Under the pieces are notes generated by a model. That model worked only from the letters and a program-made list of their open reading frames with translations. It did not search any database and was not told where the DNA came from. This document shows, in pieces, positions 1,400 to 64,000 of a stretch of DNA of 64,000 bases. Numbering within the stretch: position 1 is the first letter of the stretch; the number at the start of each line of letters is the position of its first letter. The translations under genes and the position numbers were made by a program. Source of the DNA: Turritopsis dohrnii (taxonomy: Eukaryota > Cnidaria > Hydrozoa > Anthoathecata > Oceaniidae); the NCBI GenBank assembly GCA_027922465.2, contig BQMF02000267.1, forward strand, positions 417,175-481,174, read 5' to 3'.

Positions 1400-2809
1400 T
1401 TCAAAAGCATTAATGAAAAAGAACGATGCAAATTCATGGTGTTTGATATTAAAGAATTCTACCCTTCAATCACAGAAAAGCTGTTGGGGAATGCAATCAC
1501 ATTTGCTGCAAAACACGTCAAAATATCAGATGATGATTTCAAAATTATCAGACATTCCCGTAAGTCGCTTCTTTACAATGATAAACAACCTTGGGTAAAG
1601 AAAAATAACGAGTCGTTCGATGTATCAATGGGTGCGTACGACGGCGCGGAAGTATGTGAAGTCGTAGGATTGTACCTGCTTTCCACTATATCGAAATCAT
1701 ACAACAAAGCCAATATAGGTCTTTACAGAGACGATGGGCTAGCTGTTTTCAAAAACATCAGTGGACCACAAGCCGACGCAACGAGAAAACACTTCCATGC
1801 AATCTTCAAGAGAAACGGTCTCGACTTAGAAATTGAATGCAATCTCAAAATCGTAAACTTCTTAGACGTAACGTTAAACCTAAATGACGGTACGTATAGA
1901 CCATATCGAAAGCCAAACGATGAGACCATGTACATCAACGCCAAATCGAATCACCCACCAAATATAATCAAACAATTACCACTTTCAATCGAGAAGAGAC
2001 TCAACTCCTTATCCAGTAACGAAGCCAGTTTCACTGAGTCAGCAAAATACTACCAAGATTCTCTTGACAGATGCGGATATAAACACACCTTGAAATACCA
2101 AAAGCCAAACAACAAGACCAGCCAAACAAACGATAACAAACGCAAACGCAACATTATCTGGTTCAACCCGCCATTCTCGAAAAGTGTTTCCACAAATATT
2201 GGAAAATATTTCCTTCATCTTCTCGACCGACACTTTCCTGTTAACCACAAATTCAGAAAACTGTTCAACCGTAACACAGTCAAAATCAGTTACAGTTGTA
2301 TGCCGAACATGAAGGCCATCATCAACAACCACAACAAATCCATCCTCCGGAAAGAAGAAACGGCTGAACGAACCTGCAACTGTTTACAAAAAAACCCCTG
2401 TCCTTTAAGCAACCACTGCTTGTCAACAAACATAGTCTACGAAGCAACCATAACATCCAATAAACCAAATTATACCCCGAAATCCTACATCGGAATGACA
2501 GAAACAACGTTCAAAACACGATTTGCCAACCACAAAAAAGCATTCAACCATCAACGTTATGAAAACGACACAGAACTTTCAAAGGAAGTGTGGAGATTGA
2601 AAAGAAAAAACTATGATTTTAATGTAACCTGGAAGATTAAGAAGAAATGCGCACCCTACAACCCCACGACCGGAAAATGCAATCTGTGTTTAAGTGAAAA
2701 ACTTCTGATCATCGAAGAACAATCCATCAACAAGAACTTATTGAACTCTCGCGATGAACTGGTGTCGAAATGCCGTCACCAAAATAAGTTCAAACTCCAA
2801 AATATATAA
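1400..2809 (+). pseudogene. Penelope-like RT + GIY-YIG ORF, 5'-truncated copy
   Basis: Open reading frame of a truncated retroelement protein. It starts inside the reverse transcriptase just before motif A (FDIKEFYP) and continues through the YRDDGL active site, the FLDVTLNL thumb segment, a cysteine linker (CNCLQKNPCPLSNHC) and the GIY-YIG nuclease (SYIGMTETTFKTRF) to a natural stop at 2807-2809. Unlike copy 2 it has six A residues at 2605-2610 and keeps the frame to the end. The ATG at 1367 belongs to the flanking TA-rich DNA and is not the family's start. Without the N-terminal third it cannot make a full RT. Confidence 0.75.
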
Positions 2810-3035
2810 AATGACGTCAATCGAGATGCCATTACATTGTAATTTTTACCGTTTTCGGTTTAGTTAGCTGATGAATCTTAACGAAGAAACTCAGAGTTCT
2901 AACAAATACTTTGTCTTTCTTTATTGTTTATAATATGCTCCTCTTCGTTGAGCACTTTTACGAAAGAAGATAAATCCGACAACATTTATCATACGCTCCT
3001 TCGCTGTCGAGCACTTTTTAACTTCAATCGTCGAA
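2810..3035 (+). repeat. Junction of the two Penelope copies (pseudo-LTR-like): 3' UTR of copy 1 plus leader of copy 2
   Basis: This 226-base stretch holds the 3' untranslated tail of copy 1 (the same tail recurs after copy 2) and then the unique leader before the copy 2 ATG. The leader has an imperfect repeat, gctcctcttcgttgagcac at 2937-2955 and a similar block at 2996-3013. The candidate hammerhead ribozyme lies in the shared tail. Confidence 0.55.
2863..2903 (+). ncRNA. Candidate hammerhead ribozyme (type I, short stem III), copy 1
   Basis: The two conserved boxes are present in order: CTGATGA (2868-2874) and GAAAC (2886-2890). Stem I is a perfect 5 bp match (GTTAG 2863-2867 with CTAAC 2899-2903). 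Stem III would be the short ACT/AGT helix at 2889-2897. The predicted cut follows T2898, in a GUU triplet. Hammerheads with very short stem III are known from Penelope-like elements. The weakness is helix II: bases 2875-2885 give an A-A mismatch next to the core and only two good pairs. It is a candidate, not a proven ribozyme. Confidence 0.42.
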
Positions 3036-5184
3036 ATGGAAAGATACAATCTCAATTATTCGGTAAAGAACATACCAATACCTGGAGAACTGCAGTACAA
3101 ATTACAATTGATCGATAAAATTGAACTTTTAATAAAGCGAATGAGATGGAAGGCGTTCTTCTACGAGTCAAACGAAAAGAAGAAGAAAGGAAAGGGTGAC
3201 GAGGAAACCACAAAAACGAAAAGAGAAACCTATGGTTTGAAAAGTCCAAACTGCCCACCGAGCGTTAACGATCTAGTCAGCTTCGAAAACGAACTGTTTG
3301 ACCTCGTTAAGAAAATAAAATTCCGTAACCTCAGTTGCAACTTCCAAAAGAAAATGAATGCAGATATAAAGGAAATCAAAAGAATGAACACCACACTGAC
3401 ACAAGCTGACAAAACATCAAATATGTACAAACTACCAAAAGAGAAGTATAACCAAATCCTCCAAAACGCAATCACAAAATCTTACAAGAAAAGTAACCAA
3501 AACACGGGTGAGAAAATCAACTCCGACGGCAAGATCCTTGCAGAGAAGGCGAAAGTTTCCGATCGAATGAATGTAAACGGTGAGAACGAATGCTTCATCA
3601 CTTTAAAAGACCACAAGACGAACTTTGAAAACAAATTACCAACTCGCTTGATTAACACTGCAAAAAACGAAATCGGCAGAATCAGCAAAACAATACTTCA
3701 AATCACGAACGCATCGCTCCGATCGACCCTTAAACTCCAACAATGGGGCAACACCGAAACCGTCATTGACTGGTTCAAAAGCATCAATGAAAAAGAACGA
3801 TGCAAATTCATGGTGTTTGATATTAAAGAATTCTACCCTTCAATCACAGAAAAGCTGTTGGGGAATGCAATCACATTTGCTGCAAAACACGTCAAAATAT
3901 CAGATGATGATTTCAAAATTATCAGACATTCCCGTAAGTCGCTTCTTTACAACGATAAACAACCTTGGGTAAAGAAGAATAACGAGTCGTTCGATGTATC
4001 AATGGGTGCGTACGACGGCGCGGAAGTATGTGAAGTAGTAGGATTGTACCTGCTTTCCACTATATCGAAATCATACAACAAAGCCAATATAGGTCTTTAC
4101 AGAGACGATGGGCTAGCTGTTTTCAAAAACATCAGTGGACCACAAGCCGACGCAACGAGAAAACACTTCCATGCAATCTTCAAGAGAAACGGTCTCGACT
4201 TAGAAATTGAATGCAATCTCAAAATCGTAAACTTCTTAGACGTAACGTTAAACCTAAATGACGGTACGTATAGACCATATCGAAAGCCAAACGATGAGAC
4301 CATGTACATCAACGCCAAATCGAATCACCCACCAAATATAATCAAACAATTACCACTTTCAATCGAGAAGAGAATCAACTCCTTATCCAGTAACGAAGCC
4401 ATTTTCACTGAGTCAGCAAAATACTACCAAGATTCTCTTGACAGATGCGGATATAAACACACCTTGAAATACCAAAAGCCAAACAACAAGACCAGCCAAA
4501 CAAACGATAACAAACGCAAACGCAACATTATCTGGTTCAACCCGCCATTCTCGAAAAGTGTTTCCACAAATATTGGAAAATATTTCCTTCATCTTCTCGA
4601 CCGACACTTTCCTGTTAACCACAAATTCAGAAAACTGTTCAACCGTAACACAGTCAAAATCAGTTACAGTTGTATGCCGAACATGAAGGCCATCATCAAC
4701 AACCACAACAAATCCATCCTCCGGAAAGAAGAAACGGCTGAACGAACCTGCAACTGTTTACAAAAAAAACCCTGTCCTTTAAGCAACCACTGCTTGTCAA
4801 CAAACATAGTCTACGAAGCAACCATAACATCCAATAAACCAAATTATACCCCGAAATCCTACATCGGAATGACAGAAACAACGTTCAAAACACGATTTGC
4901 CAACCACAAAAAAGCATTCAACCATCAACGTTATGAAAACGACACAGAACTTTCAAAGGAAGTGTGGAGATTGAAAAGAAAAAAACTATGATTTTAATGT
5001 AACCTGGAAGATCAAGAAGAAATGCGCACCCTACAACCCCACGACCGGAAAATGCAATCTGTGTTTAAGTGAAAAACTTCTGATCATCGAAGAACAATCC
5101 ATCAACAAGAACTTATTGAACTCTCGCGATGAACTGGTGTCGAAATGCCGTCACCAAAATAAGTTCAAACTCCAAAATATATAA
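3036..5184 (+). pseudogene. Penelope-like element copy 2: full-length RT + GIY-YIG ORF with one late frameshift
   Basis: The frame opens at ATG 3036 (MERYNLNY) and runs to 4991. Order of parts: lysine-rich N-terminal region; reverse transcriptase with motif A FDIKEFYP (about 3816), motif C YRDDGL (about 4098-4115) and the thumb FLDVTLNL; cysteine linker (about 4749-4793); GIY-YIG nuclease SYIGMTETTFKTRF (about 4858). A run of seven A residues at 4979-4985, against six in copy 1, shifts the frame and stops it at 4991; in the other frame the C-terminus continues to the normal stop at 5182-5184. Only the last ~65 codons are affected, but they include the end of the nuclease domain. The single-base change in a homopolymer could be real or a consensus error. 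Confidence 0.8.
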
Positions 5185-40643: not shown

Positions 40644-41534
40644 ATGGTACACACAGTATGGATACTTAAGGGTCCAGTACTGCTCGCAGTTGCTTCAATT
40701 GGAAATGTGATTGTGGTTGCAGTATGGCGACGCATATTAAAGAGAGACAGGGCATACAGTCCAGTTTTTTTCATTCTGATTCCAATTTTGGAAATGATTA
40801 CCCTGCTCTTTGTATCAGTCAATGATGTCAGTTTAAATGTTTGGCCATGGTTGCGCAATACACGTTCTTATAACTTTTATTATTCATATGTTGGTGAGCC
40901 ACTTTGTACATTTGCAATCAATTCCGTAACGGCTGTACTGGCTTTTCTGTCTGTTCAACGGGCTGAGATGACATTGAGACCTTTAAACAAGTTCAAGCGA
41001 AATATTCCAAGAGAAACCAATATTATCATTGCAGTTGCATTGGTCTGGACAGGTTTGCTTTCGATACCAATCTTCTTTAAGAATAAAGTTGTCGAGAATA
41101 AGGGAATATTCAACACGACTTTTACAAATGGCTACACAAAGAATCACATCTTTGCAAATCGTTGCATTTTGGGTGCCGCTGTACCCTGTATCATAATCGC
41201 CATCTCAAACTTGCTGTTATGTTGCAAGAAGAAGTCAGACGTGGAACCTGAAAAATCGAAATCATCCAGAATTTCCAAAACAGATCACCAGGCTGTTTCT
41301 CGTATATTATTATTGGTTACCATTTCAACTCTATTCTTCAAAGGAGCTCGATGTACGTTGGGCTGCATCAAATTCGTCACATCGTTTGATAAAGAAACGA
41401 AAGCTACCGTTAGATTCTGGCAAACTGTTCCAATTATCATCGATTCTTCAATTTGCATCTTGCTTTACAGCATACCCAGTAAAAAGTTTCGATTGGAATT
41501 GAAAGTTTGTTTTTGCGTAATAAAGTGGATGTAG
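40644..41534 (+). CDS. Rhodopsin-type (class A) G-protein-coupled receptor, 296 aa
   Basis: Seven hydrophobic segments in one exon. TM1 has the GN signature (ASIGNVIVVAVW, N21). TM3 holds the disulfide cysteine (C88) and ends in SVQRAEM, an altered DRY box that keeps the arginine (R106). TM4 has the conserved W135. Extracellular loop 2 has C174, the probable partner of C88. TM6 lacks the CWxP motif, and TM7 has SSICILLYSIP in place of NPxxY. A short N-terminus suggests a small ligand such as a peptide or amine; no ligand can be named. Lineage-specific intronless receptors of this sort are abundant in cnidarians. ATG context AAAATGG is good. It is the only confident host gene in the window. 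Confidence 0.8.
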   Translation: MVHTVWILKGPVLLAVASIGNVIVVAVWRRILKRDRAYSPVFFILIPILEMITLLFVSVNDVSLNVWPWLRNTRSYNFYYSYVGEPLCTFAINSVTAVLAFLSVQRAEMTLRPLNKFKRNIPRETNIIIAVALVWTGLLSIPIFFKNKVVENKGIFNTTFTNGYTKNHIFANRCILGAAVPCIIIAISNLLLCCKKKSDVEPEKSKSSRISKTDHQAVSRILLLVTISTLFFKGARCTLGCIKFVTSFDKETKATVRFWQTVPIIIDSSICILLYSIPSKKFRLELKVCFCVIKWM

Positions 41535-48690: not shown

Positions 48691-48989
48691 TCTATTTCAA
48701 ATTAGCTGGCAGTGTTTTTTCAAACCTCAATAACTTTTGATAACTTTTGAGAATTTGAATTAAGTAGCGATTTTGTGCTCATTGGAAAGATTATCGGAAG
48801 TGGGATATGATTTTGATGAAAAATTCGATGAAATATCGAAAATGAAGAAGAAAAACGAAAAAGAAAAAAATCAACTTAGAGATAATAAAATGCCGATTGT
48901 AGGACACACGGTCAAACTCTCATAGTCCCAGAAAAAAATCGGAAAAATGACAAAGTGCCCACCCCTTCTGCGCATGCGTCGAAAAATGA

Positions 48990-49200
48990 TGACGTCAGCA
49001 TTATCGTCGAAAAATGATGACGTCAGCATTATCGTCGAAAAATGTTGACGTCAGCATTATCGTCGAAAAATGTTGACGTCAGCATTATCGTCGAAAAATG
49101 TTGACGTCAGCACTATCGTCGAAAACCGTCGAAAAGTGTTGACGTCAGCACATCATCGAAGTCATCAATCAAAACCACCCCCAAATGAATGCTGACGTCA
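48990..49200 (+). promoter_or_regulatory. Seven perfect CRE sites (TGACGTCA) upstream of the Polinton polymerase
   Basis: TGACGTCA at 48990, 49018, 49046, 49074, 49102, 49140 and 49193. The first five are exactly 28 bases apart in a tandem repeat with the phrase tcgtcgaaaaatg. The octamer is the consensus site of CREB/ATF factors. They lie 120-330 bases before the polymerase ATG, a plausible enhancer-promoter distance. Confidence 0.75.
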
Positions 49201-49321: not shown

Positions 49322-52300
49322 ATGTTGAGTTATTTCAGAAACGCAGTATCTAAATTATACAACGCTGTTTCAGCGCCTGTAGCAACAACTCGTGACGCAC
49401 TCGCAGATCGATTGCAGAAGATTCGCGAGTCTGTTACTTCTTTATATAACAAGACTAAGGAGAGACTAGGATATGGACAGTCACCACTGATTTCAGCTGT
49501 TGAACGCGAAGCCATGACAGAAGAGGAGGCGAGCATGCCGATGGAAGACACCAACAACACAAGTATGAGTGATGATTTTATACCTATGAAGCATAAGCAT
49601 GCACTACGTAAAACTTTCCGAAGCTTTCGTATAGGTGGTATAGGAAAAGCTGATGTTGATGGATACTTCACGCTAGTGAGAGCAAATGTGAAGAAATTGA
49701 TGGAAGAGCAGGTTGAGGACATGGGGTCTGCTAAAGTACAACTTTCTCTATGGATCATGTGGAAGAAGCCTATCAAGAATTTAATTCAACTTGAAGATGA
49801 TGATATAGAAGAAGATGAGGGAACTGAAGATGAATATGTAAGGATAGAAAAAGTTTTTAACAGCTTGATGATGAGAGTGTTCCAAGGTAGTGACATGAAA
49901 GAGATATTGGATGAGATGTTTGCATATATCAAAACCCAAGTAGAGCATCCTGCATTACCACAAAGCGGCTTCACCATCGATCACATCATGCACCTGGACG
50001 TAGACTTTCACAAGCTGCAGCTGATGAGAGGATCTTCATACATCGAACTACCACCGTGGATAGCGTCGAAAAAGGCAATCATCAACCCTAAAAACGATGA
50101 TGAAGAATGCTTCAAGTGGGCTGTAATAGCAGCACTACATCATGAAGAGATCACTAGTCATTCAGAACGGATATCTAACCTAAAAAAGTATGAGAATAAG
50201 TACAACTGGGATGGTTTAGAATTTCCTGTAGCAATAGACAAGATAGCAAAGTTCGAGAAGAATAATCCTAACATTGGGGTGAACGTACTATATATCGAAG
50301 AAAAGTCTACAAAGAGGAGGATCAACACCACACGAGAATCTAATCGTAACATAAGCGCAAAGAAGCAAGTCAATCTGTTGATGGTATGTGATGGAGAGAA
50401 GAAGCACTATACAGCAATCAAGAATCTATCAAGGTTGTTGGGTCAAGAAAACACAAATCATCAACATGCACAGCACTTTTGCATCAACTGTCTAAATGGT
50501 TTTCACAATGTAGAGTCACGAGACAAGCACTATATCTACTGCTCTGGCAATGAACAAGTTAGAGTGGAGATGCCTGGAGAGAAGGAAAAATGGCTGTATT
50601 ATAACAATGGAGAGATGCAGTTCAGAGTACCTTTTGCTATCTATGCAGATTTCGAGAGTCTTTTAGTACCTATGAAGGAAGATGGGAGAGAGAAGAACAC
50701 AAAAACACTATCGAAGCATATACCTTCAGGATGGTGTACGTACAGCAAGTTTGCGTATGGAGATGTGCAAGATCCTCTAAAAGTATACAGAGGTGAAGAT
50801 TGTGTAAAGAAGTTTGTGGATCATCTGGAAGATGAAGTTAAGCGGTTGTATGCGACATTTCCAGAGCAATCGATGATAGAACTGACGGATGTTCAGAAGC
50901 GTGATCATTGGGATGCAGAAACTTGTCACATATGTATGCAGCCATTTTCCGATCCTCAAAATCGCAAAGTCAGAGATCACTGTCACTATACAGGTTTATA
51001 TCGAGGTGCCGCACATAACAATTGCAACCTAAGATACAAGATCCCACATCATATCCCTATCATCTTTCACAACTTAAGTGGCTATGATGCACACCTCTTC
51101 ATTAGAGAACTGGGGGAAAAGTACAACATGGAAGATATAGGATGCATCGCGGAAAATAGGGAAAAGTATATATCCTTCCATGTCAAAATAGCAATACCAC
51201 TTGCTGGTGTTTTCAACTCTGATGGTGCACAAGTGTACAAGAAGATCGAGCTGAGATTCATTGACAGCTGTAGATTCATGGCATCAAGTTTGGATAAATT
51301 GTCCTCTAATCTTAGCGATGAGCAGTGCAGAAATCTTCGATGGTTTTACAAGGAAGATAGCATCTTTCAGTTGATGCGCCGCAAAGGTGTATATCCATAC
51401 GAGTATATGGATAGTTGGGAAAAGCTTGCTGAGAGAGAGCTACCTCTAAAAGAAGCCTTTTACAGCAAGCTGAACATGTGTGGTATAAGTGACACAGACT
51501 ACGAACATGCACAACAGGTGTGGAGAAGAGTGTCTCCAGAAGGAGACGTGACAACACTTGGAGATTACCACGATGTGTACTTGGCAACGGACGTTCTACT
51601 GTTAGCAGATGTGTTTGAAACGTTTCGGGATACATGCTTGCATCACTACCAACTGGATCCACTCCATTTCTACACAGCACCAGGTTTGGCGTGGAAAGCA
51701 GCCTTGAAGTATACCCGAATAGAGTTAGAACTGCTCACAGACATAGACATGCTGTTAATGTTCGAGAGAGGTATACGAGGAGGTATAACACAAGCTGTAC
51801 ATCGCTATGTAAAAGCAAACAATAAGTATATGGATGATCAATATGATCCGAAGGAGGAATCCTCATATGTAATGTACCTTGACGCAAACAACCTTTACGG
51901 TTGGGCTATGGCATCAGACTTGCCAACACATGGATTTAGATGGGTAAAAAATGTTGAGAAGTTCACACCTGAAGGTATTGCGAAGTTAGTTAAGAAGAAT
52001 GAGTATGGCTATCTGCTGGAGGTGGATGTCGAGTATCCAAAGAGGCTACATGATGCTCATAATAGTTTACCATTTCTACCTGAGAGAATGACACTTGCAA
52101 AGGTGGAAAAACTCGTACCAAATCTCCACAACAAGCGTGAGTATGTCATAGATATAAGAGCGCTACATCAAGCGTTGACTCATGGCTTAGTTCTGAAGAA
52201 AGTCCACCGAGTCATCAGGTATCATCAGGTTGCCTGGCTCAAGCCATACATAAACTTAAACACAAGACTAAGAAAAGAATCAAAGAACGACTTCGAAAAA

Positions 52301-53083
52301 GACTTTTTCAAGCTTATGAACAATAGCGTGTTTGGTAAGACGATGGAGAATATACGGAACCATCGCAATATGAAGTTAGTTACGAACGAAAAGAAGTATA
52401 AGGGGTACGTCATGAAACCTAACTTTAAAAGTGGAGTTCGCTTTAGCGCAAACTTGATGGGTGTGGAGATGGGTAAGACAAGTATCAAGATGATGAAGCC
52501 TGTATACATAGGTCAGGCTATACTTGATATGAGTAAGATGTTAATGTATGAATTCCACTATGACTACATGCAGCCGAAATATGGCAGTAAGCTGCAACTC
52601 TGCTATATGGACACTGACAGCTTCGTGTACCACATCAAGACGGAAGATTTCTATCGAGATATAGCTGAAGATGTAGAAAAGAGATTTGACACGAGTAATT
52701 ATTCAGAGAAAGACAGATTATACACATTAAAGAATGAGAAGGTTATTGGTCTGATGAAGGACGAACTTGGTGGTAAGATCATGACGGAGTTTGTGGCTTT
52801 ACGAGCTAAACTCTATGCATACAAGACGCTAGAGAAGGAAGACAAGCGATGCAAAGGCATGAAAAAGTGTGTGGTTAAAAAATCCATTACATTCGAAGAT
52901 TATAAGAAGTGTCTAGAAGATGGAGGAAATCTATATAGAGAAATGGTAGTGCTTCAAAATAAGAAGCATCAAATGTATACACAAAAAGTGAACAAGATTG
53001 CTTTGAACAGAGACGATGATAAACGCATCATACAGACAGATTTGATCACAACGCGTGCTCGAGGATTCATAAATTCATGCTGA
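49322..53083 (+). CDS. PolB: Protein-primed DNA polymerase B of the Polinton, 1253 aa
   Basis: Intact reading frame. An N-terminal region of about 380 residues leads to a C2H2-like finger (CINCLNGFH...HYIYC, about 386-406). The 3'-5' exonuclease has IYADFESL (about 442), FHNLSGYDAHLF (about 583) and YHDVYLATDVLLLADV (about 750). An HNH-like zinc segment (DHCHYTGLYRGAAHNNC) sits at about 552. The polymerase has motif A LDANNLYGWAM (about 854), motif B KLMNNSVFGKTMEN (about 997) and motif C YMDTDSF (about 1095). Insertions between A and B and the overall order fit the protein-primed B family of Polintons and adenoviruses, which starts synthesis from a terminal protein. All acidic catalytic residues are present. 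The start at 49322 is the first ATG after the AP-1 palindrome and gives the usual length. Confidence 0.92.
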   Translation: MLSYFRNAVSKLYNAVSAPVATTRDALADRLQKIRESVTSLYNKTKERLGYGQSPLISAVEREAMTEEEASMPMEDTNNTSMSDDFIPMKHKHALRKTFRSFRIGGIGKADVDGYFTLVRANVKKLMEEQVEDMGSAKVQLSLWIMWKKPIKNLIQLEDDDIEEDEGTEDEYVRIEKVFNSLMMRVFQGSDMKEILDEMFAYIKTQVEHPALPQSGFTIDHIMHLDVDFHKLQLMRGSSYIELPPWIASKKAIINPKNDDEECFKWAVIAALHHEEITSHSERISNLKKYENKYNWDGLEFPVAIDKIAKFEKNNPNIGVNVLYIEEKSTKRRINTTRESNRNISAKKQVNLLMVCDGEKKHYTAIKNLSRLLGQENTNHQHAQHFCINCLNGFHNVESRDKHYIYCSGNEQVRVEMPGEKEKWLYYNNGEMQFRVPFAIYADFESLLVPMKEDGREKNTKTLSKHIPSGWCTYSKFAYGDVQDPLKVYRGEDCVKKFVDHLEDEVKRLYATFPEQSMIELTDVQKRDHWDAETCHICMQPFSDPQNRKVRDHCHYTGLYRGAAHNNCNLRYKIPHHIPIIFHNLSGYDAHLFIRELGEKYNMEDIGCIAENREKYISFHVKIAIPLAGVFNSDGAQVYKKIELRFIDSCRFMASSLDKLSSNLSDEQCRNLRWFYKEDSIFQLMRRKGVYPYEYMDSWEKLAERELPLKEAFYSKLNMCGISDTDYEHAQQVWRRVSPEGDVTTLGDYHDVYLATDVLLLADVFETFRDTCLHHYQLDPLHFYTAPGLAWKAALKYTRIELELLTDIDMLLMFERGIRGGITQAVHRYVKANNKYMDDQYDPKEESSYVMYLDANNLYGWAMASDLPTHGFRWVKNVEKFTPEGIAKLVKKNEYGYLLEVDVEYPKRLHDAHNSLPFLPERMTLAKVEKLVPNLHNKREYVIDIRALHQALTHGLVLKKVHRVIRYHQVAWLKPYINLNTRLRKESKNDFEKDFFKLMNNSVFGKTMENIRNHRNMKLVTNEKKYKGYVMKPNFKSGVRFSANLMGVEMGKTSIKMMKPVYIGQAILDMSKMLMYEFHYDYMQPKYGSKLQLCYMDTDSFVYHIKTEDFYRDIAEDVEKRFDTSNYSEKDRLYTLKNEKVIGLMKDELGGKIMTEFVALRAKLYAYKTLEKEDKRCKGMKKCVVKKSITFEDYKKCLEDGGNLYREMVVLQNKKHQMYTQKVNKIALNRDDDKRIIQTDLITTRARGFINSC

Positions 53084-54121: not shown

Positions 54122-54778
54122 ATGTACGAAGTAATACTACTCATCTGTTTCTGCGTTCCGACAGGACTTTGGATGTTTGTTTTCTGGAAGTGTCGTCATA
54201 TAATAAATCTAGTAATGAATATCGATGGATCTATTGACGTAGTTGGTACTCCAGCAGAAGCGCAGAAAAGAGCAGAACTTATACGTGCTGTACAAAGTGG
54301 TCAACATCTTGGCGGTAAAAAACCTTGGACAGTTGAAAGAGTGAATAAGTTGCAAGACAAGACCATCGAAAAGCTATACAAAACATACACGGAGGGGAAT
54401 GAGTTCCAGCAAGAAACGCCTGATTTCAACGCTCTGATATCTAATTTGGTAGGTGTGAGAGATGTTTCAAAGATGATGAAGGAGATCAACGGAAATCCAC
54501 TCATCACTTATTCCATCACGAGTTATATGGCGGCATCTATGCCTGGCGTTTCACCTATGGATGTGATAGGGTCTACTATCTACTCAAATTGTAAAACTTT
54601 TCTCGGTCCTATGGCGCTGTTTGCGATCATTTTTAGCAATCTTGATTGGATTAAGTACGCAAAAATCGCTGAAGATCGTCAAATAAATGAGCGAAGACGA
54701 GAAGAAGATAGTAAAATTGAAGGACCCTGGGAGAGTCGCGAGCGGGAAGAAGCTAGCAGAGTGGAACCGAAAGAATAA
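54122..54778 (+). CDS. Polinton membrane protein, 218 aa, unknown function
   Basis: An N-terminal membrane helix (residues 3-24, LLICFCVPTGLWMFVFW), a soluble middle with mixed charge (GGKKPWTVERVNKLQDKTIE), a hydrophobic segment near 155-180 (FLGPMALFAIIFSNLDW) and a highly charged tail. Its last 92 bases overlap the next gene in another frame. The position between polymerase and integrase, together with the other small membrane proteins, suggests a role in the particle or in membrane interaction. I do not recognise a family. Confidence 0.65.
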   Translation: MYEVILLICFCVPTGLWMFVFWKCRHIINLVMNIDGSIDVVGTPAEAQKRAELIRAVQSGQHLGGKKPWTVERVNKLQDKTIEKLYKTYTEGNEFQQETPDFNALISNLVGVRDVSKMMKEINGNPLITYSITSYMAASMPGVSPMDVIGSTIYSNCKTFLGPMALFAIIFSNLDWIKYAKIAEDRQINERRREEDSKIEGPWESREREEASRVEPKE

Positions 54779-55091
54779 AAAGAACTTAGAAGTACCTACG
54801 CAAGTACCTACACAAGTACCTAATCAAGTACCTAATCAAGTACCTACGCAAGTACCTACACAAGTACCTAATCAAGTACCTAATCAAGTACCTACGCAAG
54901 TACCTACACAAGTACCTACTAAGACGTATATGATTGGAGGAGCTGGTGGTGCCATAGCTGTTTTAGCTGTGGGGTTGTTAGTCTGCTACTTCTACACACG
55001 AGCAACGCGCAAAAGCTCTTCTACTAAGCCTTCCGCTGACACTGGCTCAAAGGTGCAAGCACAAAAACAAGATCATTTTTGCTTAATATAA
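54687..55091 (+). CDS. Membrane protein with VPTQ/VPNQ repeat, 134 aa
   Basis: Starts at ATG 54687 inside the previous gene. Residues 1-35 are basic (VKLKDPGRVASGKKLAEWNR), with the RVxxGKxLAEWN pattern that recurs in proteins of this class of element. Then about ten tetrapeptides VPTQ or VPNQ (54800-54918), a single membrane helix (GGAGGAIAVLAVGLLVCYFY) and a short tail. The DNA repeat (cctacacaagtacctaatcaa) makes length variation likely. It would sit in a membrane with a proline-rich stalk. Stop TAA is followed at once by ATG of the next gene. Confidence 0.65.
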   Translation: MSEDEKKIVKLKDPGRVASGKKLAEWNRKNKKNLEVPTQVPTQVPNQVPNQVPTQVPTQVPNQVPNQVPTQVPTQVPTKTYMIGGAGGAIAVLAVGLLVCYFYTRATRKSSSTKPSADTGSKVQAQKQDHFCLI

Positions 55092-55731: not shown

Positions 55732-56712
55732 ATGACTGAAACGTTGCGTGACATCTACTACAAACCAGAGAATCTGTGGAAAGGGAAGAAAGCCATTAAA
55801 GAGCTTCAGAAGGCTGCTGGAGTTACCAGGAAACAAGTGTTGAAGTGGCTAACTCATCAAGCTTTATATCAGATACATCTACCAAGGCCTAAGCACATCG
55901 ACTATCCTCACTTTTACGTGACGAAGGTGAACAAGATCCACCAGGCCGATCTTTTGTATCTTCCTCATGACAAAGTCTATCAGAATACGTACAAGTACGC
56001 TTTGAATGTGATCGATATTGCTTCAGGGTATAAAGCGAGTAGACCTCTGAGAACGAAGAAGGCGAGCGACGTTGCAGAGATGTTTGCTGACATTTACAAA
56101 AAGGGTCCACTAAAGTGGCCTGAGAAGCTCTATGTAGATAACGGATCAGAGTTCAAGTCGGAAACAGCCAAGGTCTTCCAGAAGCACGATGTCGAGGTGG
56201 TGAGAACTACAACAAAGCATAACCACAGAAAGCAGGCCTTTGTGGAAAACTTCAACAAACTCCTCGCGGAGAAACTTTTCCCTATACAAGATGCGCAGGA
56301 GTTGGAAGATCCAGAGAAAAACAGTACCACTTGGGTAAAACACTACCAGAAAAGTGTGAGTCAACTGAACAACAATGTTCTTGCCAGAACCGGGATGAAA
56401 CCCTCAAAGGCGATTAAACTGGAGGAAGTTCCGTTAAAAGTTGGGTTTTACCCGAAGGAAGAAACTTTACCTGAAGCGGGATTATACCGCTATTTGCTAG
56501 CGCCGGGTGAGGAACATGACGGCATAAAACGACGCGCAACAGACAACAACTGGAGTCGGGAAACGTATCGGGTCGATAAGATATTGCAATACCAAGGTCA
56601 GCGTGTTTTGTACTACCTAGAAGATGGGCCGGAGAGATCTTTTGTACGTGAAGAACTTATGCTTATTCCTGAGGATACGGAAGTACCTCCAGAATACGTA
56701 AAAAAGTGGTAG
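55732..56712 (+). CDS. Polinton integrase (rve/DDE), 326 aa
   Basis: An N-terminal helical part, then the retroviral-type integrase fold with D73 (HQADLLYLP), D136 (LYVDNGSEF) and E172 (AFVENFN); D136 and E172 are separated by 35 residues, the classic D,D35E spacing. The C-terminal ~90 residues (YRVDKILQYQGQRVLYYLE) resemble the chromodomain-like end of Polinton integrases. The enzyme would join the element's ends to host DNA with a short duplication. The frame is intact and all three acids are present. It is the last gene of the closely packed block that starts at 54122. Confidence 0.92.
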   Translation: MTETLRDIYYKPENLWKGKKAIKELQKAAGVTRKQVLKWLTHQALYQIHLPRPKHIDYPHFYVTKVNKIHQADLLYLPHDKVYQNTYKYALNVIDIASGYKASRPLRTKKASDVAEMFADIYKKGPLKWPEKLYVDNGSEFKSETAKVFQKHDVEVVRTTTKHNHRKQAFVENFNKLLAEKLFPIQDAQELEDPEKNSTTWVKHYQKSVSQLNNNVLARTGMKPSKAIKLEEVPLKVGFYPKEETLPEAGLYRYLLAPGEEHDGIKRRATDNNWSRETYRVDKILQYQGQRVLYYLEDGPERSFVREELMLIPEDTEVPPEYVKKW

Positions 56713-56758: not shown

Positions 56759-57346
56759 ATGTTGCGTTTTGGACAAATCGAAGTTTCACGGAATGACTTT
56801 AACTCTAGTGCAGAACTTACCGACATTTACACTATCGACATGTCAAAGATCACTATAGCAGAACCTATCGTAGCAAACAAGAACGACCTGAGGTACTACA
56901 TCGGGTATGAGAAGGAAGCGAGTAAAATTGTTCCTCTCTTGATCAAGACCCCAAAGAATTGCCACTCTTCAGGGGTATCGAGGTATAACGAGACATCTGC
57001 CTGGAAGATGGGATTCAACGTGTTGGATGATAAAGCTTGGTGTGATGCCTACAACGCGATTGCTGATCGTGTGCAAGAGCTTCTCTTCAAGACCTTGACA
57101 GGTACTGTGATAAGTACTGCAGGCTGGATCAACCCAAAGCTCATCTCCTGGGATGGTAACATCAAAACAAAGTTTATAAACGATTCACCGCCGTTCAACA
57201 AATCCTGCAAGGCCACTGGTGTGTTGAAGATCGGAAGCGTGTACACACAGACCCATCACAACCACTACCTCCAAGTCCATCTGAAAGAGTGCAAGTACCA
57301 TGAAACAGATATGCGTGAGAGCCTTCTCAGTGATGACGATGAGTAG
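56759..57346 (+). CDS. Conserved Polinton protein, about 196 aa, possibly a DNA-binding replication factor
   Basis: The start is placed at ATG 56759 (MLRFGQIEVSR); an upstream TTG at 56732 extends the frame but is unlikely. The protein has IVPLLIKTPKNCHSSGVSRY and a C-terminal VLKIGSVYTQTHHNHYLQVH, ending in an acidic SLLSDDDE tail. From memory, this pattern recurs in cnidarian and insect Polinton-type elements; an acidic tail and beta-rich body are common in single-stranded DNA-binding proteins, so that role is a reasonable guess but unproven. A perfect hairpin follows four bases after the stop. Confidence 0.6.
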   Translation: MLRFGQIEVSRNDFNSSAELTDIYTIDMSKITIAEPIVANKNDLRYYIGYEKEASKIVPLLIKTPKNCHSSGVSRYNETSAWKMGFNVLDDKAWCDAYNAIADRVQELLFKTLTGTVISTAGWINPKLISWDGNIKTKFINDSPPFNKSCKATGVLKIGSVYTQTHHNHYLQVHLKECKYHETDMRESLLSDDDE

Positions 57347-57443: not shown

Positions 57444-57695
57444 ATGAACAAAAATGAACTTAATGAACTCTTGAGTGGTGAAATAAGGTACAAGCGGAAC
57501 CAGTGCTCTATAGGAGTGCAGACAGAGTTCCCCGAGTGTCACGAATGTGCACTGAATAGACTTTTTTGTAATCTCTCGAAAAAAGCGTTTGTCAAAAGAC
57601 AAATTTATACATCGCCAGCAGGTGAGGAGACTGATGTTGAAACCGGAGAGATCGTAGGCTATGAGGTTGACTGTACCAGGCATTACTTCAAGTAA
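57444..57695 (+). CDS. Small cysteine-containing protein, 83 aa
   Basis: Contains FPECHECALNRLFC, three cysteines close together that may bind zinc with the later C or H residues (VDCTRHYF). No named family. Its last eight bases overlap the 3' end of the innexin gene on the other strand, so the two are convergent. Confidence 0.5.
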   Translation: MNKNELNELLSGEIRYKRNQCSIGVQTEFPECHECALNRLFCNLSKKAFVKRQIYTSPAGEETDVETGEIVGYEVDCTRHYFK

Positions 57696-58767
57696 ATGTC
57701 TCCCACTTGACGTCCATACGTGTGCAAGTTGGAAGTTGTTCATCAGGGAAATTTGTCATCATCTGGTTGATTTCATAAAATTTTTGGATATCTTTTTCTC
57801 GAACAGCCTCATAAAGTTCCAATTGATACATAGTGAAGCCTTTCCTATTGGAACGATGGTAGTTTTGGTACATTCGCCCTAGTGTTATTAGTACACCAAT
57901 GCAAGAAATTATAGTTCCTAACACTGCAACCAACCACACTATAATGAAGCAGTAGCCATATATGACATCTGAAGATATCTCACATGATAAAGTTAGTGTG
58001 TTGGTGTATATAACCGTGAGACTACCCTTATTTGCCTCAATCGTGCACATACCCATAGTAGGAAAGAGTACATTATTACCTTTCTTCGTTATATCTGGCA
58101 CTCCTATGAGTTGTCTGCATGCCTGGAGAATCGACAGGTTCATGATGATGTACAAAATTTCCACTATAAATTGGCAAAAAATGTACACATTCTTCGTACA
58201 AGTCACAGTATCACAAAAGTACACATTATAAATCGCTGCTGCAGAGGAAGATTCTACACAGCTCTTAAATTTTTCCAATCGCTCAAAGTTCCACTTGAAC
58301 AGCATATATGGCAACTGTAATGCCATTGAACATGCTAGAATGAAGAATGGAATCCATTGGTAAGATGTGATAATAGTCTTTTTCATGGGCACACATGATC
58401 CTCGCGACTTACATAGCACATGACTGCCATCTCGCTGCTGGAGAATTCCAGTCATATCGAGAGTATCAGGAATTCCGTACTCGTGAGATAGTTCATATTT
58501 TGTGAGCTCCTCATATATATATAGACCCTTCATCCAGCAAGCATTTTGTATGAATTTGTTCCCTACATCCCAACCTAACATATTGCAATTCATGCCATCT
58601 TTGTACCAACACCATGCCGTTATGAGAGTTGTCAACATGATTATCTTTGAACCCAGCAGCCTGTTAAATCTGGATGTAACTGAATCATTTCTCTTCTTAG
58701 TAAAATCTATAGCGAGAACTTGCTTGAGCGGATCTATAATATTCATTTTATCTCTTTTCAAATGCAT
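57688..58767 (-). CDS. Innexin (gap-junction family protein), 359 aa, in the Polinton
   Basis: Four membrane helices in the innexin layout: TM1 about 41-57, TM2 133-158 starting with the family signature YQWIPFF (Y136-F142), TM3 about 196-216, TM4 270-297. Extracellular loop 1 has cysteines at 61 and 77, loop 2 has FPTMGMC (C241) and LTLSCEI (C262); these pairs are those that form loop disulfides in innexins. The cytoplasmic tail (about 298-359) ends without a special motif. Innexins assemble into hexameric or octameric channels between cells or hemichannels. The gene has no intron and is wedged between element genes with an 8-base overlap, so it is carried by the element. The frame is intact. 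Parasitoid-wasp polydnaviruses carry innexins (vinnexins); this would be a separate capture. Confidence 0.88.
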   Translation of the reverse strand: MHLKRDKMNIIDPLKQVLAIDFTKKRNDSVTSRFNRLLGSKIIMLTTLITAWCWYKDGMNCNMLGWDVGNKFIQNACWMKGLYIYEELTKYELSHEYGIPDTLDMTGILQQRDGSHVLCKSRGSCVPMKKTIITSYQWIPFFILACSMALQLPYMLFKWNFERLEKFKSCVESSSAAAIYNVYFCDTVTCTKNVYIFCQFIVEILYIIMNLSILQACRQLIGVPDITKKGNNVLFPTMGMCTIEANKGSLTVIYTNTLTLSCEISSDVIYGYCFIIVWLVAVLGTIISCIGVLITLGRMYQNYHRSNRKGFTMYQLELYEAVREKDIQKFYEINQMMTNFPDEQLPTCTRMDVKWETFT

Positions 58768-58859
58768 GGCACCAAAACCACTTTACTCTGCCCGATGTTG
58801 ATACGCGGGAATTGTTCGAGGGTATGTTCGATATCGACATGTAACGTTTTGTAGCTACT

Positions 58860-58940
58860 ATGAAGTGTGAACAACTCACTAGAGCAGAACTTGAAAAGGG
58901 TGTCCAACGGTTGGACCCCCTTGGGAGGTCGAGTAAATAA
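58860..58940 (+). CDS. Possible 26-codon ORF before the zinc-ribbon gene
   Basis: ATG 58860 to TAA 58938-58940; the stop is directly followed by the next ATG, the same TAAATG junction seen elsewhere in the element. Charged, no motif. It could be an upstream regulatory ORF rather than a protein gene. Confidence 0.25.
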   Translation: MKCEQLTRAELEKGVQRLDPLGRSSK

Positions 58941-59171
58941 ATGGAAGACTTTTCAAATCCAATATTTGACTCTGCCAAGGATAGACTCCTTAAAATATTC
59001 AACGAAATGTCAAAGCCTAGAGCGACTGCTCCAGAACAAACATTGTATACTTGCCATCGCTGTGAGAGCAGGAACATTCTTTCAATACCAAAACAAGTCA
59101 GGTCATGTGACGAGGGAACGTCAGTGTTCAATGAGTGTAACAACTGCCATAGCAAGTGGAGGGATGGATAA
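58941..59171 (+). CDS. TFIIS-like zinc ribbon protein, 76 aa
   Basis: The C-terminal 40 residues form a zinc ribbon: YTCHRCESRN, then QVRSCDEGTSVF and ECNNCHSKW. The RSxDE signature is that of the elongation factor TFIIS C-terminal domain, where the acidic pair reaches into RNA polymerase II and stimulates transcript cleavage. Viral TFIIS-like proteins of this kind are known in large DNA viruses. There is no TFIIS domain I or II; the N-terminus is a short helix. It may act on host RNA polymerase II. Start directly follows an upstream stop (TAAATG). Confidence 0.65.
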   Translation: MEDFSNPIFDSAKDRLLKIFNEMSKPRATAPEQTLYTCHRCESRNILSIPKQVRSCDEGTSVFNECNNCHSKWRDG

Positions 59172-59182
59172 TACAAATGTCG

Positions 59183-59355: not shown

Positions 59356-59817
59356 TCACCTTCCTTGATCGTTTTCGCAGCTCTTGCTTCTGATGTTCGT
59401 AAAGCTGTTTAGCACACGCAGACTGTCTAGAACGGTCTGCGCAGCGAATGCGATATCATGATTTTTCTGTCTTTTTACATCGAAAATAGAGGCACATTTT
59501 TGAATACCGCCCATTATTAGACCCACCACGAGAGCTGTCACACACAGCGCGATGCTCATCGAAGTATCCATTTCTGATACCAAGCATGCAATCTCACCAC
59601 CAGAGAGTACAACATTCACCGCGATCAGAAAGTAACATGCATATTTCGCAACTGCTGAGTAGTGTGAAAATTTGCGCTCTAAAGATGTTCGACTTTCTAG
59701 TTCCCGAGATAGGTATGCTTCCGTCTCCTTCACCGCTTGAATTCTATAGTTTTTTGCGTATCCATTCTCTGGGTCTGGTAAAACAGGATATAGCTTCTCC
59801 GTAGTCACGTCGTACAT
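59356..59817 (-). CDS. Two-helix membrane protein of the Polinton, 153 aa
   Basis: A charged helix (KETEAYLSRELESRTSLERK), two membrane helices close together (about 54-72 YACYFLIAVNVVLSGGEIAC and 81-101 ALCVTALVVGLIMGGIQKC), and a charged tail (KNHDIAFAAQTVLDSLR). The arrangement of helix, TM hairpin, helix is like SLATT-type two-TM effector domains, but sequence identity is too weak to claim it. It follows the penton-like gene on the same strand by about ten bases. The natural C-terminus may be in the -1 frame (see 59202-59320). Confidence 0.5.
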   Translation of the reverse strand: MYDVTTEKLYPVLPDPENGYAKNYRIQAVKETEAYLSRELESRTSLERKFSHYSAVAKYACYFLIAVNVVLSGGEIACLVSEMDTSMSIALCVTALVVGLIMGGIQKCASIFDVKRQKNHDIAFAAQTVLDSLRVLNSFTNIRSKSCENDQGR

Positions 59818-60504: not shown

Positions 60505-61531
60505 ATGAACTACGACAAGGTGCGGTATATACCAACAATTCGGGCAACCCAGTACACTCTTAGCTGCTAAGGAACTGTGGGAGCAAAGGATCGTTGTGGA
60601 TCAACAAGGAGCTTTTTCATCGCTGAGTTTCGCGATATTTTCTCATTTCCGTTTTGTACCCATGAAAAATGACATATGGCTCGATATCGACATGTACCCA
60701 GGACAGTTATCTTTTGCTACCTGGTTAGCTACGACTGGTTGCGGCATATCAACGCAACATCTACACCATAAGAACCCTATGATTGCGAGCATCTACCGCT
60801 TTCACGTCTATTTTCAGATACGTCTGATCTTGAAGCAACTTGAAATTCCTCTACCAAGTGAACTAAGCTTCAACCCGCGAGATAACAAATACAATTCAAG
60901 TGCGTTCAAGACGCTCTCTGCAGAGTTTGACATACCAGCTGACAAGTTCTTCTGGCGATACCCTGCTCGCATGCGGAGAATTGGCAAGAGTTGGGAATTC
61001 TACGTTCAAAATGATGTTAATGCTGGGTTAAGTAGAGCTGGTATACAACGCTTGTCGCAGAGTACGCGGATGTACGCACGAATGCTTTTAGAAAGTCAGG
61101 CGAGTGCACGTTCCGTTATAGCGGGTGACACTGGACGTGCCTTGGATGCTCAAAAGATCTTCATGACCGCAGTAGAGCAAGCGATCCGGAAAGACACCTC
61201 TTTAGCGGAAGAGATTGGTAAGTTCCAGAAAGCCTTAAGTTACGCTAGATCGGAACCTGATTTTGGCGTTGCCCTCGGTACATACCTAATACCCAGCGAT
61301 TTAAAGCTTGGGAATCTCGACAACATCTCTGATTTTTCGACAAAGCTTACCGTTGCGACTCACATCGGTAAACTACCACCACCACCTAAACAACACTCTT
61401 TGGGAGCATTTCAGGGTCGCAGAATGGCTTCCTCCGATCCTCCAACATCTTCCGTTAAGCGAGCTCAAACGTCTTCCCAAGCTCCAATGCTAAGCAGCAT
61501 GAAGAAGAAAAGCAAGCTCTCATGTGGGTAG
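60505..61531 (+). pseudogene. Conserved Polinton virion-side gene, frameshift near the start
   Basis: The long frame (60596-61531) lacks an ATG and is open back to about 60525, reading QFGQPSTLLAAKELWEQ. The nearest ATG (60505) reads MNYDKVRYIPT in the neighbouring frame, so one base is probably lost or gained near 60530. Features: MYPGQLSFATWLATTGCG, FHVYFQIRLILKQL, SRAGIQRLSQSTRMYARML, ALDAQKIFMTAVEQAIRK, and ALGTYLIPSDLKLG, then a proline-rich and basic tail. From memory the same blocks recur in Polinton-type elements of corals and anemones, next to the capsid genes. Function unknown. Confidence 0.5.
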
Positions 61532-61539
61532 GTGTCGGT

Positions 61540-62820
61540 TTAATTGCGGTTCTTTTGTATTTCAAACCATAGCCAGTTGCCTATCAGACCAACCCCCAAA
61601 ACTACGACTAGCCATGCATTGCTTGCTAGAGCTATGACACCTTTCTTCAGAAAGTTTAAGAGCCAGCTTACAACACTTCCAATGATCCCCGGCAATGCAG
61701 CTCCAAGTTTGCTTGCAAGTTTTCCGAGAAGGCGTCCAAGTGCTTCGAGCTGCTTCTTCACCCATTGCTGCACACCAGCTCTTCCAGAAGCAGCAGGAGG
61801 ACTTCCTGGAGGAGCACCACCACCACCTGTGAGAGAGGTTGCTATCGTTGATATTACCAGCGAAAACGCTGTTAAGATTGAAACGATTGTGATGCCTTGC
61901 TCTCGAAAGAGGATGCGAAGTTTCTCCCCTAGTGTTCTATCCTTGTCGAGGACTTTGAATACCGTCTCTTTGATGCGCGACCACTGGCTAGACAACTCCT
62001 TGCGGTTACCACTGAGCACCTCTAGTCGATCTGCACGCTCCGCTTTCAAATTGGAGAGTCGTCGCTTAATCTCTTCTTGTATTTCAGGATTGCTTGTTTC
62101 ACCTAGTTTTACGTTCTTCTTTTGCTATTTGATTATCGAGTTCGCCTAATTTTGCTAAGTTGTTCTCAACTCCCCACGTATTCGTTTTAGTGCATCGTCT
62201 AAGCCTCTAAGTTCACGCAAATTAAATTCAATCCCATGCTCGCTTAAGAACTCCTCTACCTCTAATGTTTTTTTGGGTGCCTTGCTCGAGCATTTCACCC
62301 AATACCTCCCTACGCATTTGAGATTTTGTCGAGGACTTGACTGTCATCCAAGCTATCCATTTCAATATTTTCTAGTTGTTTCGCCAGTTTACGTCTTCCC
62401 TTATGCATCAGCTCTGGTGTACTATCAACACCTAACTGGGTTTTTTATAGCAGCCTCACCACCTAGGGTTTTCAAAATACTTCTTCTTTAGCGTAAAATC
62501 CTCCCCTTTTTTTCGTTAATTGGTGCCATTCATCATTTTTATAAAATTCAACTTTTACAACACCTGGTGTTTTCGTTGAAGTTACTCGAAACCGATCCAA
62601 AGCCAAATCGAGGATCTCCTTTCTATACCGAGATAGTTGTATAACTCTTCTATTGTCTGTCTTTTAATTTCTATTCCCTGCTGAATTGATGTGCATTGGT
62701 ATTTCAGAAGAATCGCCTGTGTCAGATATAAGGCGGTGTAGTGTCAGATGTAAACGATGTATCTTCTACATCTTTCAAATTTACCGTAAGGTGCTTTTAT
62801 AATCACAGTGGATCCATATT
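61540..62820 (-). pseudogene. Conserved Polinton gene with glycine-rich/amphipathic C-terminus; N-terminal half frameshifted
   Basis: The open part (62049-61540, 169 codons) has LSGNRKELSSQW, KDRTLGEKLRILFREQGITI, a membrane helix, a glycine/proline linker (TGGGGAPPGSPPAASG) and an amphipathic hydrophobic end (LPGIIGSVVSWLLNFL). The upstream frame continues to about 62820 in several pieces, including PGVVKVEFYKNDEWHQLT, STPELMHKGRRKLAKQLENI and EEFLSEHGIEFNLREL, separated by at least three shifts. The whole would be a protein of roughly 400 residues that I recall from cnidarian Polinton-like elements. The amphipathic end resembles membrane-active capsid peptides; this is an inference. Confidence 0.5.
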
Positions 62821-62834
62821 CTCTTAATAATCAA

Positions 62835-64000
62835 CATGTATGGTATTGCAAACCCTCATAAGGAATATATTGACTCGCTTTGCCTTCAAACGCACACGCC
62901 GTCATCCATGTCAAGATCTCGAACTACACACAAGTACCATGTGACCAGACTCTATAATCTAGATGCTGAGGCTGCCGAATCTAGGTGCTAATGATGTCAT
63001 TCTACCAGAATCGCTCAAGCTACGTTTGATATCAAACTCAACTCCACCGATACAGGACGCTACATCGTCAACAACTTGGGAAAGGCTTTGATCGAACAGT
63101 TGACTATCAGTTACGAAGGAAACATCATCCAAGACATTCAAAATGCGGATGTGATGGAAATTTACAAGGACAGATGGCTACCTGAGGAAATGCAAGTGGA
63201 ACGTATCCAACAGGGAATAGATCCGGAGGGTGATGTGAACAAGCTCAGAGTCACACCGGGTGCAACGAGTACTTCAACGAGTTCCGCCCTGGCAGCTGTC
63301 TATGGTAACCGTTTTGCCATTCCTCTATGGGAATTTTTTGAACTCGTCAAGCATCTCCCCTATGTACAGCTTCGCGATCGCTTAAGCTTCAAAATTAAAT
63401 TCGCAGAGTATGGAAAGGTCATCAAGATGCAGGATCAGGATCAGGTGCTTCGAAGAAAGATCCTGACGGCACCTACACTATCTCCAACATTGCTCTAGAA
63501 TTCGACAAGGTAGAAGACTCTGACTTCAAACTAAAAGTCTACAATGAACTTGCCAATAGCGACTACCCTACACGTGTTTTACGGCATAGAATAATCCCTT
63601 TGGACAAGAAAGATACCGCCTGGAATATACAGGTAAACGTGCCCAGCGAGAGTTTAAAGGCTCTTGTTCTATTCTTTCTTGATCCAGACAAACGAAAAGC
63701 ATACGCTATGGATAACACCCATTACTACAACCCGAAAATCAGCAAGGTAGACATTACCATCGAAGGAGAGCCTAATCAACTCTATACACAGGGCTTACTT
63801 CCAGAAGAAATGTATGCCCCGGCACGGAAGTATTTCACTTCCAATGAACTGCTGCCGGCCATTAGTCCTTCTAAATTCTTTGATTCTAATTACTGTCTTT
63901 TTATCGACTTTCGAAGTGTTGCTGACAATACTCTACATGGTGCGGGGAGGCGCCTCAAAAACACTTCAGATGGTGTCACACTGCAGATCACCAAAAAAGC
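62835..64000 (+). pseudogene. Major capsid protein (double jelly-roll type), frameshifted, runs off the window
   Basis: ATG 62835 opens a frame that breaks within ~160 bases; scraps GANDVILPESLKL and STDTGRY follow in other frames. The frame 63076-63498 reads GKALIEQLTISYEGNIIQDI and NRFAIPLWEFFELVKHL. After a shift near 63470 the protein continues to the edge: GTYTISNIALEFDKVED, NVPSESLKALVLFFLD, PKISKVDITIEGEPNQLY, FIDFRSVADNTLHGAGRRL. The RS-x-x-D...HG-x-GRRL and I-x-G-x-PN-x-x-Y blocks are characteristic of Polinton hexon-type capsid proteins, which form the particle shell. At least three frame changes in 1.1 kb mean this copy is inactive unless the consensus is wrong. Confidence 0.65.

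Follow-up and report, generated by a model that had tools for sequence, protein, structure and literature searches.

A divergent innexin gene apparently carried as cargo by a Polinton/adintovirus-like element of the hydrozoan Turritopsis dohrnii

Gene content of the element and its innexin open reading frame

The window examined in this study, meaning the whole 64,000-nucleotide stretch of DNA that was analysed, corresponds to positions 417175-481174 of contig BQMF02000267.1 (C267) in the 435.9-Mb assembly of Turritopsis dohrnii (GCA_027922465.2). Its right edge is the end of the contig, and the right part of the element described here lies beyond it. The left border of the insertion is a 22-base terminal inverted repeat motif at 48878-48899 (plus strand), followed by subterminal 28-bp direct repeats (family D2, 48949-49132). 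Comparison of 12 copies revealed similar sequence at several of their left ends, and in the window the GC content climbs from 0.33 to 0.41 at position 49000. The 22-base motif has 39 matches with at most one mismatch in the T. dohrnii genome (16 forward and 23 reverse), compared to none for a reversed-pattern control, and inverted pairs of the motif bound four elements of 17005, 16520, 17451 and 17181 bp. Target duplications of 5 bp were identified at two of these four elements and none were found at the other two; a 6-bp target-site duplication is typical of Polinton/Maverick insertion.

At 49322-53083 (plus strand) Pfam assigns a family B DNA polymerase, within which an endonuclease VII-like domain is embedded. 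A 400-residue piece of this protein matches DNA_pol_B_2 at 31.4 bits (cut-off 25.8) as well as Endonuclease_7, while a scan of the full-length protein at E<=0.1 recovered Endonuclease_7 and not the polymerase family. The genome search with the polymerase yielded 38 rows (37 scored of 1550 candidates), 37 of them stop-free. The open reading frame (ORF) at 54687-55091 contains a 12-base tandem repeat, translated into a Val-Pro-Thr/Asn-Gln repeat ahead of a membrane helix. The retroviral-type (rve) integrase at 55732-56712 (plus strand) matches Pfam rve with an E-value of 4.6e-7 and a score of 30.5 bits, slightly short of the 32.6-bit cut-off, and also matches PHROG transposase families; 123 integrase copies were scored in the genome out of 1203 candidates. 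Two more plus-strand ORFs lie to its right, one (56759-57346) found whole or in part in all 20 loci fetched on the integrase side and the other (57444-57695) found in 19 of these, the remaining locus being cut by a contig end. The latter ORF forms the left border of an accessory slot, which in the window holds the innexin gene (57688-58767, minus strand), the remnant of a Bro-N/DUF3627 gene (58767-58844, plus strand), and a variably present TFIIS-type zinc-ribbon protein (58941-59171, plus strand; Pfam Zn_ribbon_TFIIS, E 2.2e-10). The Bro remnant, identified by tblastn, consists of the last 24 codons and the stop, the rest of the gene having been lost in the window copy.

To the right of the slot are a two-helix membrane protein of the element (59356-59817, minus strand), an ORF with no Pfam matches (60662-61531, plus strand), an ORF with a glycine/proline-rich stretch, a hydrophobic C-terminus and no convincing family match (61540-62124, minus strand), and a capsid-like gene (62995-64000, plus strand) cut by the contig end. 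The match of the capsid-like gene to Pfam Capsid_N is weak (E 0.03, below the cut-off), and it is otherwise taken as a putative capsid gene from a sequence motif. The element had been called capsid-bearing in a preliminary description of this DNA; because the gene is split between two overlapping frames and reaches the contig end in the window copy, the term suits the family better than this particular copy. Terminal inverted repeats, an rve integrase, a family B polymerase, a capsid-like gene and a length of approximately 17 kb are features shared with Polintons/Mavericks and animal adintoviruses. Searches of viral contigs and phages with the element proteins returned nothing useful.

The innexin ORF lies where the preliminary description placed it and contains 359 codons plus a stop, with no internal stops, on the minus strand, which had been left unstated. 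Its stop-free frame extends over 364 codons, whereas the longest such frame in 300 sequences generated from the 15-kb element region by an order-2 Markov model has 265. The signatures reported for the protein are all present, namely the YQWIPF motif, the loop cysteine pairs C61/C77 and C241/C262, and four hydrophobic segments, of which the first is weak (hydrophobicity of 1.29, compared to 1.77-2.73 for the other three). The 8-base overlap with the ORF at 57444-57695 is also real, the two genes being arranged tail to tail, and the gene does lie between the integrase and the capsid-like ORF (from 62995 onward). Only two N-X-S/T motifs occur in the protein, at N27 before helix 1 and N210 within helix 3, and none in the extracellular loops, which is compatible with docking into gap junctions.

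The start of the innexin differs among copies. Out of 25 open copies, 15 possess Met1, all of them innexin-only loci, and 10 lack it, nine of which adjoin a Bro gene. The ancestral start is likely Met8 (58746), which would give a protein of 352 residues. Because starts at Met8 are found mostly with Bro and starts at Met1 all without it, the loss of Bro beside the window innexin seems to have added seven N-terminal residues.

Assignment of the protein to the innexins

Profile and pairwise comparisons confirmed that the intact, intronless ORF encodes a very divergent innexin. Innexins were gathered with two host innexin queries (the best 120 of 1445 and the best 120 of 1796 matches). A profile of 43 protostome innexins (A4; query left out, default filters) matched the element protein at 35.1 bits, with an E-value of 6.7e-8 at the size of the PDB search (177,635 sequences), and 1000 shuffles reached no more than 11.0 bits. 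When the same profile was run against all 177,635 PDB sequences, the only matches at E<=10 were 32 sequences comprising INX-6 and 31 pannexin sequences, the latter scoring between 29.4 and 35.5 bits; since these scores are comparable, the element innexin is approximately as distant from protostome innexins as pannexins are. The A4 match is weak over the C-terminal half of the protein (6.5 bits). A joint profile of 235 innexins gave 27.0 bits, and none of 1234 control sequences, which were 1000 shuffles, the protein read in reverse and 233 ORFs of the window, scored above 6.4 bits. In block shuffles, scores reached at most 12.2 bits with a lophotrochozoan profile, for which the protein itself scores 18.3, and at most 10.8 bits with the joint profile. 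Of the 29 alignment columns without variation among 43 other innexins, the protein shares 14, including the four loop cysteines, CW, YQW and FP; the 15 missing columns count against the assignment. Identity to the 43 protostome innexins compared is 14-21%.

Several results weigh on the other side. Used alone, the intact protein had no match in Pfam even at E<=10, nothing significant among PDB sequences, and no matches at E<=10 among 757 candidates from a large protein set that included insect innexins. Five broken or truncated copies from the element family nevertheless pass the Pfam Innexin family (PF00876) with 26.3-31.8 bits (cut-off 25), whereas the intact protein does not match it. A profile restricted to insect inx1 gave -6.0 bits, and one of 60 shuffles scored higher in hhalign; this profile is too narrow, but its failure still speaks against the innexin reading. 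A structure model built without an alignment was poor (pLDDT 43.9) and had no PDB match at E<=0.001. The alignment-guided model reached a pLDDT of 68.1 and a pTM of 0.68 with pannexin 1 and INX-6 as its best PDB matches, but LRRC8 and connexin chains scored nearly as well, only approximately one Z unit lower, and such a model is steered by its alignment.

The closest relatives found were other innexins encoded in the T. dohrnii genome, the best of which (L032) is 26% identical over 370 residues (pairwise E 4e-35) and is itself a Pfam Innexin at 104 bits. In a tree of 31 rows, constructed without outside cnidarian sequences, insect innexin types other than inx1, or vinnexins, the element innexin grouped with 14 own-genome innexins (100/100) and not with the six arthropod inx1 rows; its branch length was 1.78, and the tree program flagged it as unsafe to place. 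The T. dohrnii genome contains 52 Pfam Innexin rows over the cut-off, a count that includes exons and the five element fragments. Tandem innexin-like stretches, three each, occur at C156:461220-476544 and C542:158338-175581, which suggests an expanding host innexin family.

Copies of the element and a variable accessory module

A search of the genome with the innexin protein returned 128 matches, of which 82 loci with 77-100% identity were kept; the rows dropped were second pieces of the same locus or, at 27-37% identity, other innexins. Among the full-length matches (at least 1040 bases), 54 of 58 are stop-free. In 70 of the 82 loci an integrase is encoded on the other strand no more than 6 kb from the innexin 3' end, at a distance of exactly 982 bp in 38 of them. 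In 10 innexin copies checked, polymerase sequence was found at the expected offset in nine (eight with more than 120 residues) and capsid-like sequence likewise in nine. In addition, the 17005-bp element bounded by inverted termini contains a full open innexin in its slot, the 17451- and 17181-bp elements contain interrupted innexins, and the slot of the 16520-bp element is empty. The preliminary description had proposed that the innexin is cargo of a Polinton/adintovirus-like element, and these observations from outside the window, including open copies, linkage to integrase, polymerase and capsid-like sequences, and location inside inverted termini, support that claim; judged from the genome sequence, the innexin is almost certainly cargo of such an element. 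A recent host pseudogene inserted only at this site is excluded, the innexin not being a single recent pseudogene. The absence of introns had also been offered as a sign of cargo status. The gene is a single open frame, but this is weak evidence for cargo because at least two innexins of the same genome (L032 and L034) are likewise single open frames.

No innexins were found in the viral contigs searched (97 and 14 candidate stretches). The lone viral-contig match confirmed by tblastn (L001) lies among tailed-phage-like ORFs with no innexin frame and was taken as chance.

The absence of the innexin from other copies of the element had been named as evidence that would speak against the cargo claim, and such copies are in part what was observed: 53 of the 123 scored integrase loci have no adjoining innexin match. 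The reason is that the innexin belongs to a variably present module, and the same count implies that it is dispensable to the element. Both innexin and Bro were found at 35 of the 123 loci, only the innexin at 35, only Bro at 36, and neither at 17; these counts rest on scored candidates, and the last category includes contig ends and missed fragments. Twenty of the 53 integrase-only loci were fetched, and in 16 of these the slot contains a plus-strand gene of approximately 270 residues, whole or in part; of the other four loci, two have an empty slot, a retroelement interrupts the third and the fourth stops at a contig end. The approximately 270-residue gene passes the Pfam cut-offs for both Bro-N and DUF3627 (two copies scanned), and a genome search for the Bro-type gene produced 143 rows (142 scored of 280 candidates).

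A Bro-type gene lies directly upstream of the innexin, on the opposite strand, in 40 of the 82 innexin loci, most commonly at a spacing of 93 or 77 bp. The eight innexin-only loci examined by tblastn (L002-L009, where L002 is the window) all retain a Bro remnant corresponding to residues 247-270 of the open Bro-type protein, and these last 24 codons sit right at the innexin start. Conversely, in 13 of the 20 integrase-only loci the DNA shared with the window extends as far as 57740, into roughly the last 16 codons of the innexin, and 17-25 innexin C-terminal residues are still matched in three of the 20. A gene-for-gene swap of Bro by the innexin was considered and dropped, since 40 of 82 innexin loci carry Bro directly upstream, and remnants of both genes are more readily understood if a module of two genes lost one or the other. 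The simplest history would be a two-gene ancestral module from which either gene was repeatedly lost, spread or reshuffled among elements.

Trees of the flanking sequences were built from the eight innexin-only loci, window included, and the 20 fetched integrase-only loci. The left flank tree (8 innexin rows of 27) forces at least four changes of slot state on well-supported branches. The right flank tree (7 innexin rows of 23) forces at least three, the label being somewhat clustered (25 of 500 shuffles as low). In these trees the slot state is scattered relative to the flanks, a pattern that would fit repeated loss and recombination equally well.

Other parts of the slot also vary among copies. 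The TFIIS zinc-ribbon protein (76 residues) was found in four of the 20 integrase-only loci, and a stretch at approximately 58928-59173 is missing as a unit from many related copies. The Bro-N/DUF3627 genes (L010-L029) have at least two different C-terminal halves, with approximately 60-70% overall identity between types, as if the DUF3627-like end had been exchanged between copies. Additionally, the slot contains a 79-bp stretch (58853-58931) that other copies have within their Bro-type gene, at approximately 85-96% identity, and that is possibly a short recombining repeat.

Possible function of the element innexin and comparison with known viral innexins

The explanation that accounts best for these data, and which we consider likely to be correct, is that the element captured an innexin and has kept it as an accessory gene that most likely acts through membrane channels. 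A Polinton/adintovirus-like integrating element of approximately 17 kb would have taken up an animal innexin, the lineage of its present host being the most likely donor. The element would transmit this gene in a module in which a Bro-N/DUF3627 gene is transcribed divergently from it and some copies also have the TFIIS zinc ribbon. The presence of innexin and Bro together is the presumed ancestral state, and erosion or reassortment of the module may have given rise to the innexin-plus-Bro, innexin-only, Bro-only and empty forms. Innexins build hemichannels and gap junctions, and because the innexin hallmarks are kept and the protein looks selected, channel formation is the most likely activity of the element protein as well, either alone or mixed with host innexins. 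Such channels could alter how a cell with an active element is coupled to its neighbours or how permeable its membrane is, although the chances that the protein actually works in this manner are, on present sequence evidence, about even. The broader proposal is that a small, integrating family of Polinton-type viruses encodes a gap-junction-type channel, retained by selection in an accessory module alongside a Bro-type gene, and during its activity employs it to rewire the coupling between the infected cell and its neighbours, whether electrical, metabolic or defence-related; this proposal is advanced tentatively and is slightly more doubtful.

A different role for the protein is conceivable within the same setting. 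The innexin may act as a dominant-negative or decoy subunit that enters the channels of host innexins and shuts or misdirects them, thereby uncoupling infected cells so that defence or death signals do not spread. Polydnavirus innexins disrupt host encapsulation according to the title of PMC8402728, and the first extracellular loop of the element innexin is comparatively long, with 58 residues from CW to YQW compared to 27 and 39 in two innexin sets, and contains an additional cysteine pair (C119/C125). Against this, the protein retains the YQW motif and the loop cysteines found in ordinary innexins; a decoy function seems unlikely.

Alternatively, the gene may be a passive hitchhiker that serves no function for the element, having been captured from the host on a single occasion and carried along as the element spread. 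The optional nature of the innexin, missing from 53 of 123 integrase loci, would be expected in this case, and decayed innexins with 82-84% identity and six (L061, contig C466) or eight (L062, C671) stops are found beside integrases that are 99-100% identical to that of the window. Either decay at these two loci was apparently much faster in the innexin than in the adjoining integrase, or the loci are mosaics. In addition, the largest pairwise dS among open copies is 0.028, and because the copies are this young, the openness of their frames (54 of 58) proves little by itself, even though it stands against a functionless passenger. Also against it are the 25 open copies, in which 13 synonymous and 13 nonsynonymous changes correspond to a per-site N/S ratio of 0.26 (0.20 when pooled pairwise; binomial p of 0.0009 against equal rates). 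Twenty-eight copies had been submitted to this test and three left out, two of them decayed and one (L049) open. It is important to note that the copies were picked mainly for openness, that transition bias was ignored, and that the ratio is support rather than proof since the copies are young and chosen mainly for open frames. Furthermore, the retention of the loop cysteines, CW, YQW and FP at 14-21% identity points to long constraint, part of which perhaps predates capture. Overall, maintenance of the innexin by selection is probable, and a mere passenger correspondingly improbable.

Domestication, in which the host rather than the element now uses the innexins, is very improbable. There are many open copies in one genome, and for 12 of the 82 innexin loci no integrase was listed within 6 kb, some of these loci being at contig ends; however, the copies are spread over many contigs, 70 of the 82 are tied to an integrase, mostly at a fixed spacing, and the measured termini enclose the whole element. 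Finally, a convergent membrane protein that merely resembles an innexin, as the failed single-sequence searches of Pfam, PDB and the protein set and the poor alignment-free model might suggest, is ruled out for practical purposes by the profile, shuffle and pairwise tests, the own-genome match at E 4e-35 to a protein that is itself a Pfam Innexin, and the broken element copies that exceed the Innexin cut-off.

An element-captured accessory innexin has precedents among much larger viruses. According to one report (PMC7016691), the vinnexins of ichnoviruses, the polydnaviruses of parasitoid wasps, are intronless innexin genes of an integrated DNA virus that are strongly similar to insect innexins. 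The element innexin is likewise intronless and carried by an integrated animal DNA virus or virus-like element, but its carrier is a small Polinton-type element rather than an ichnovirus, and the nearest relatives found for it are own-genome innexins rather than those of insects. Majaniviruses, endogenous Nimaviridae of penaeid shrimp, also carry an innexin, g155 of Nimav-1_LVa, as described in PMC10871703 and PMC7016691. As in the present element, a family of endogenous integrating DNA viruses passes the innexin on by inheritance; in contrast to the element innexin, which is intronless and variably present in an element of approximately 17 kb, g155 has four exons in a genome of approximately 280 kb. 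Pannexins, which the element innexin parallels in profile distance and in its alignment-guided model, carry extracellular N-glycosylation sites that hinder junction formation according to PMC8769644, whereas the loops of the element innexin contain no such motifs.

No report of an innexin in Polintons or adintoviruses was found in the open-licence literature. Viral innexin capture is known, and what appears new here is the much smaller class of element and the modular setting. Bro-N/DUF3627 gene families occur in large DNA viruses, with which the module gene has its domains in common, while its head-to-head pairing with an innexin here is in a Polinton-type element. If the interpretation is correct, this family would join ichnoviruses and majaniviruses as the third case of innexin uptake by integrating DNA viruses of animals, and cell coupling would seem to be targeted by them repeatedly; the presence of an innexin in a 17-kb Polinton-type element, with dozens of its copies open, suggests repeated uptake of cell-coupling genes by integrating animal DNA viruses. 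The four module states within a single genome would make the fitness value of the innexin to the element measurable, and provide a concrete test case for whether animal Polintons are tissue-manipulating viruses or plain transposons.

Two other features of the window lie outside the element. An intronless ORF at 40644-41534 (plus strand) in the host flank resembles a 7TM receptor (Pfam 7TM_GPCR_Srv, 23.6 bits, cut-off 21). Two near-identical ORFs lie in tandem at 1367-4991, each with a GIY-YIG-like end; they resemble Penelope-type elements, and the one scanned had no Pfam match.
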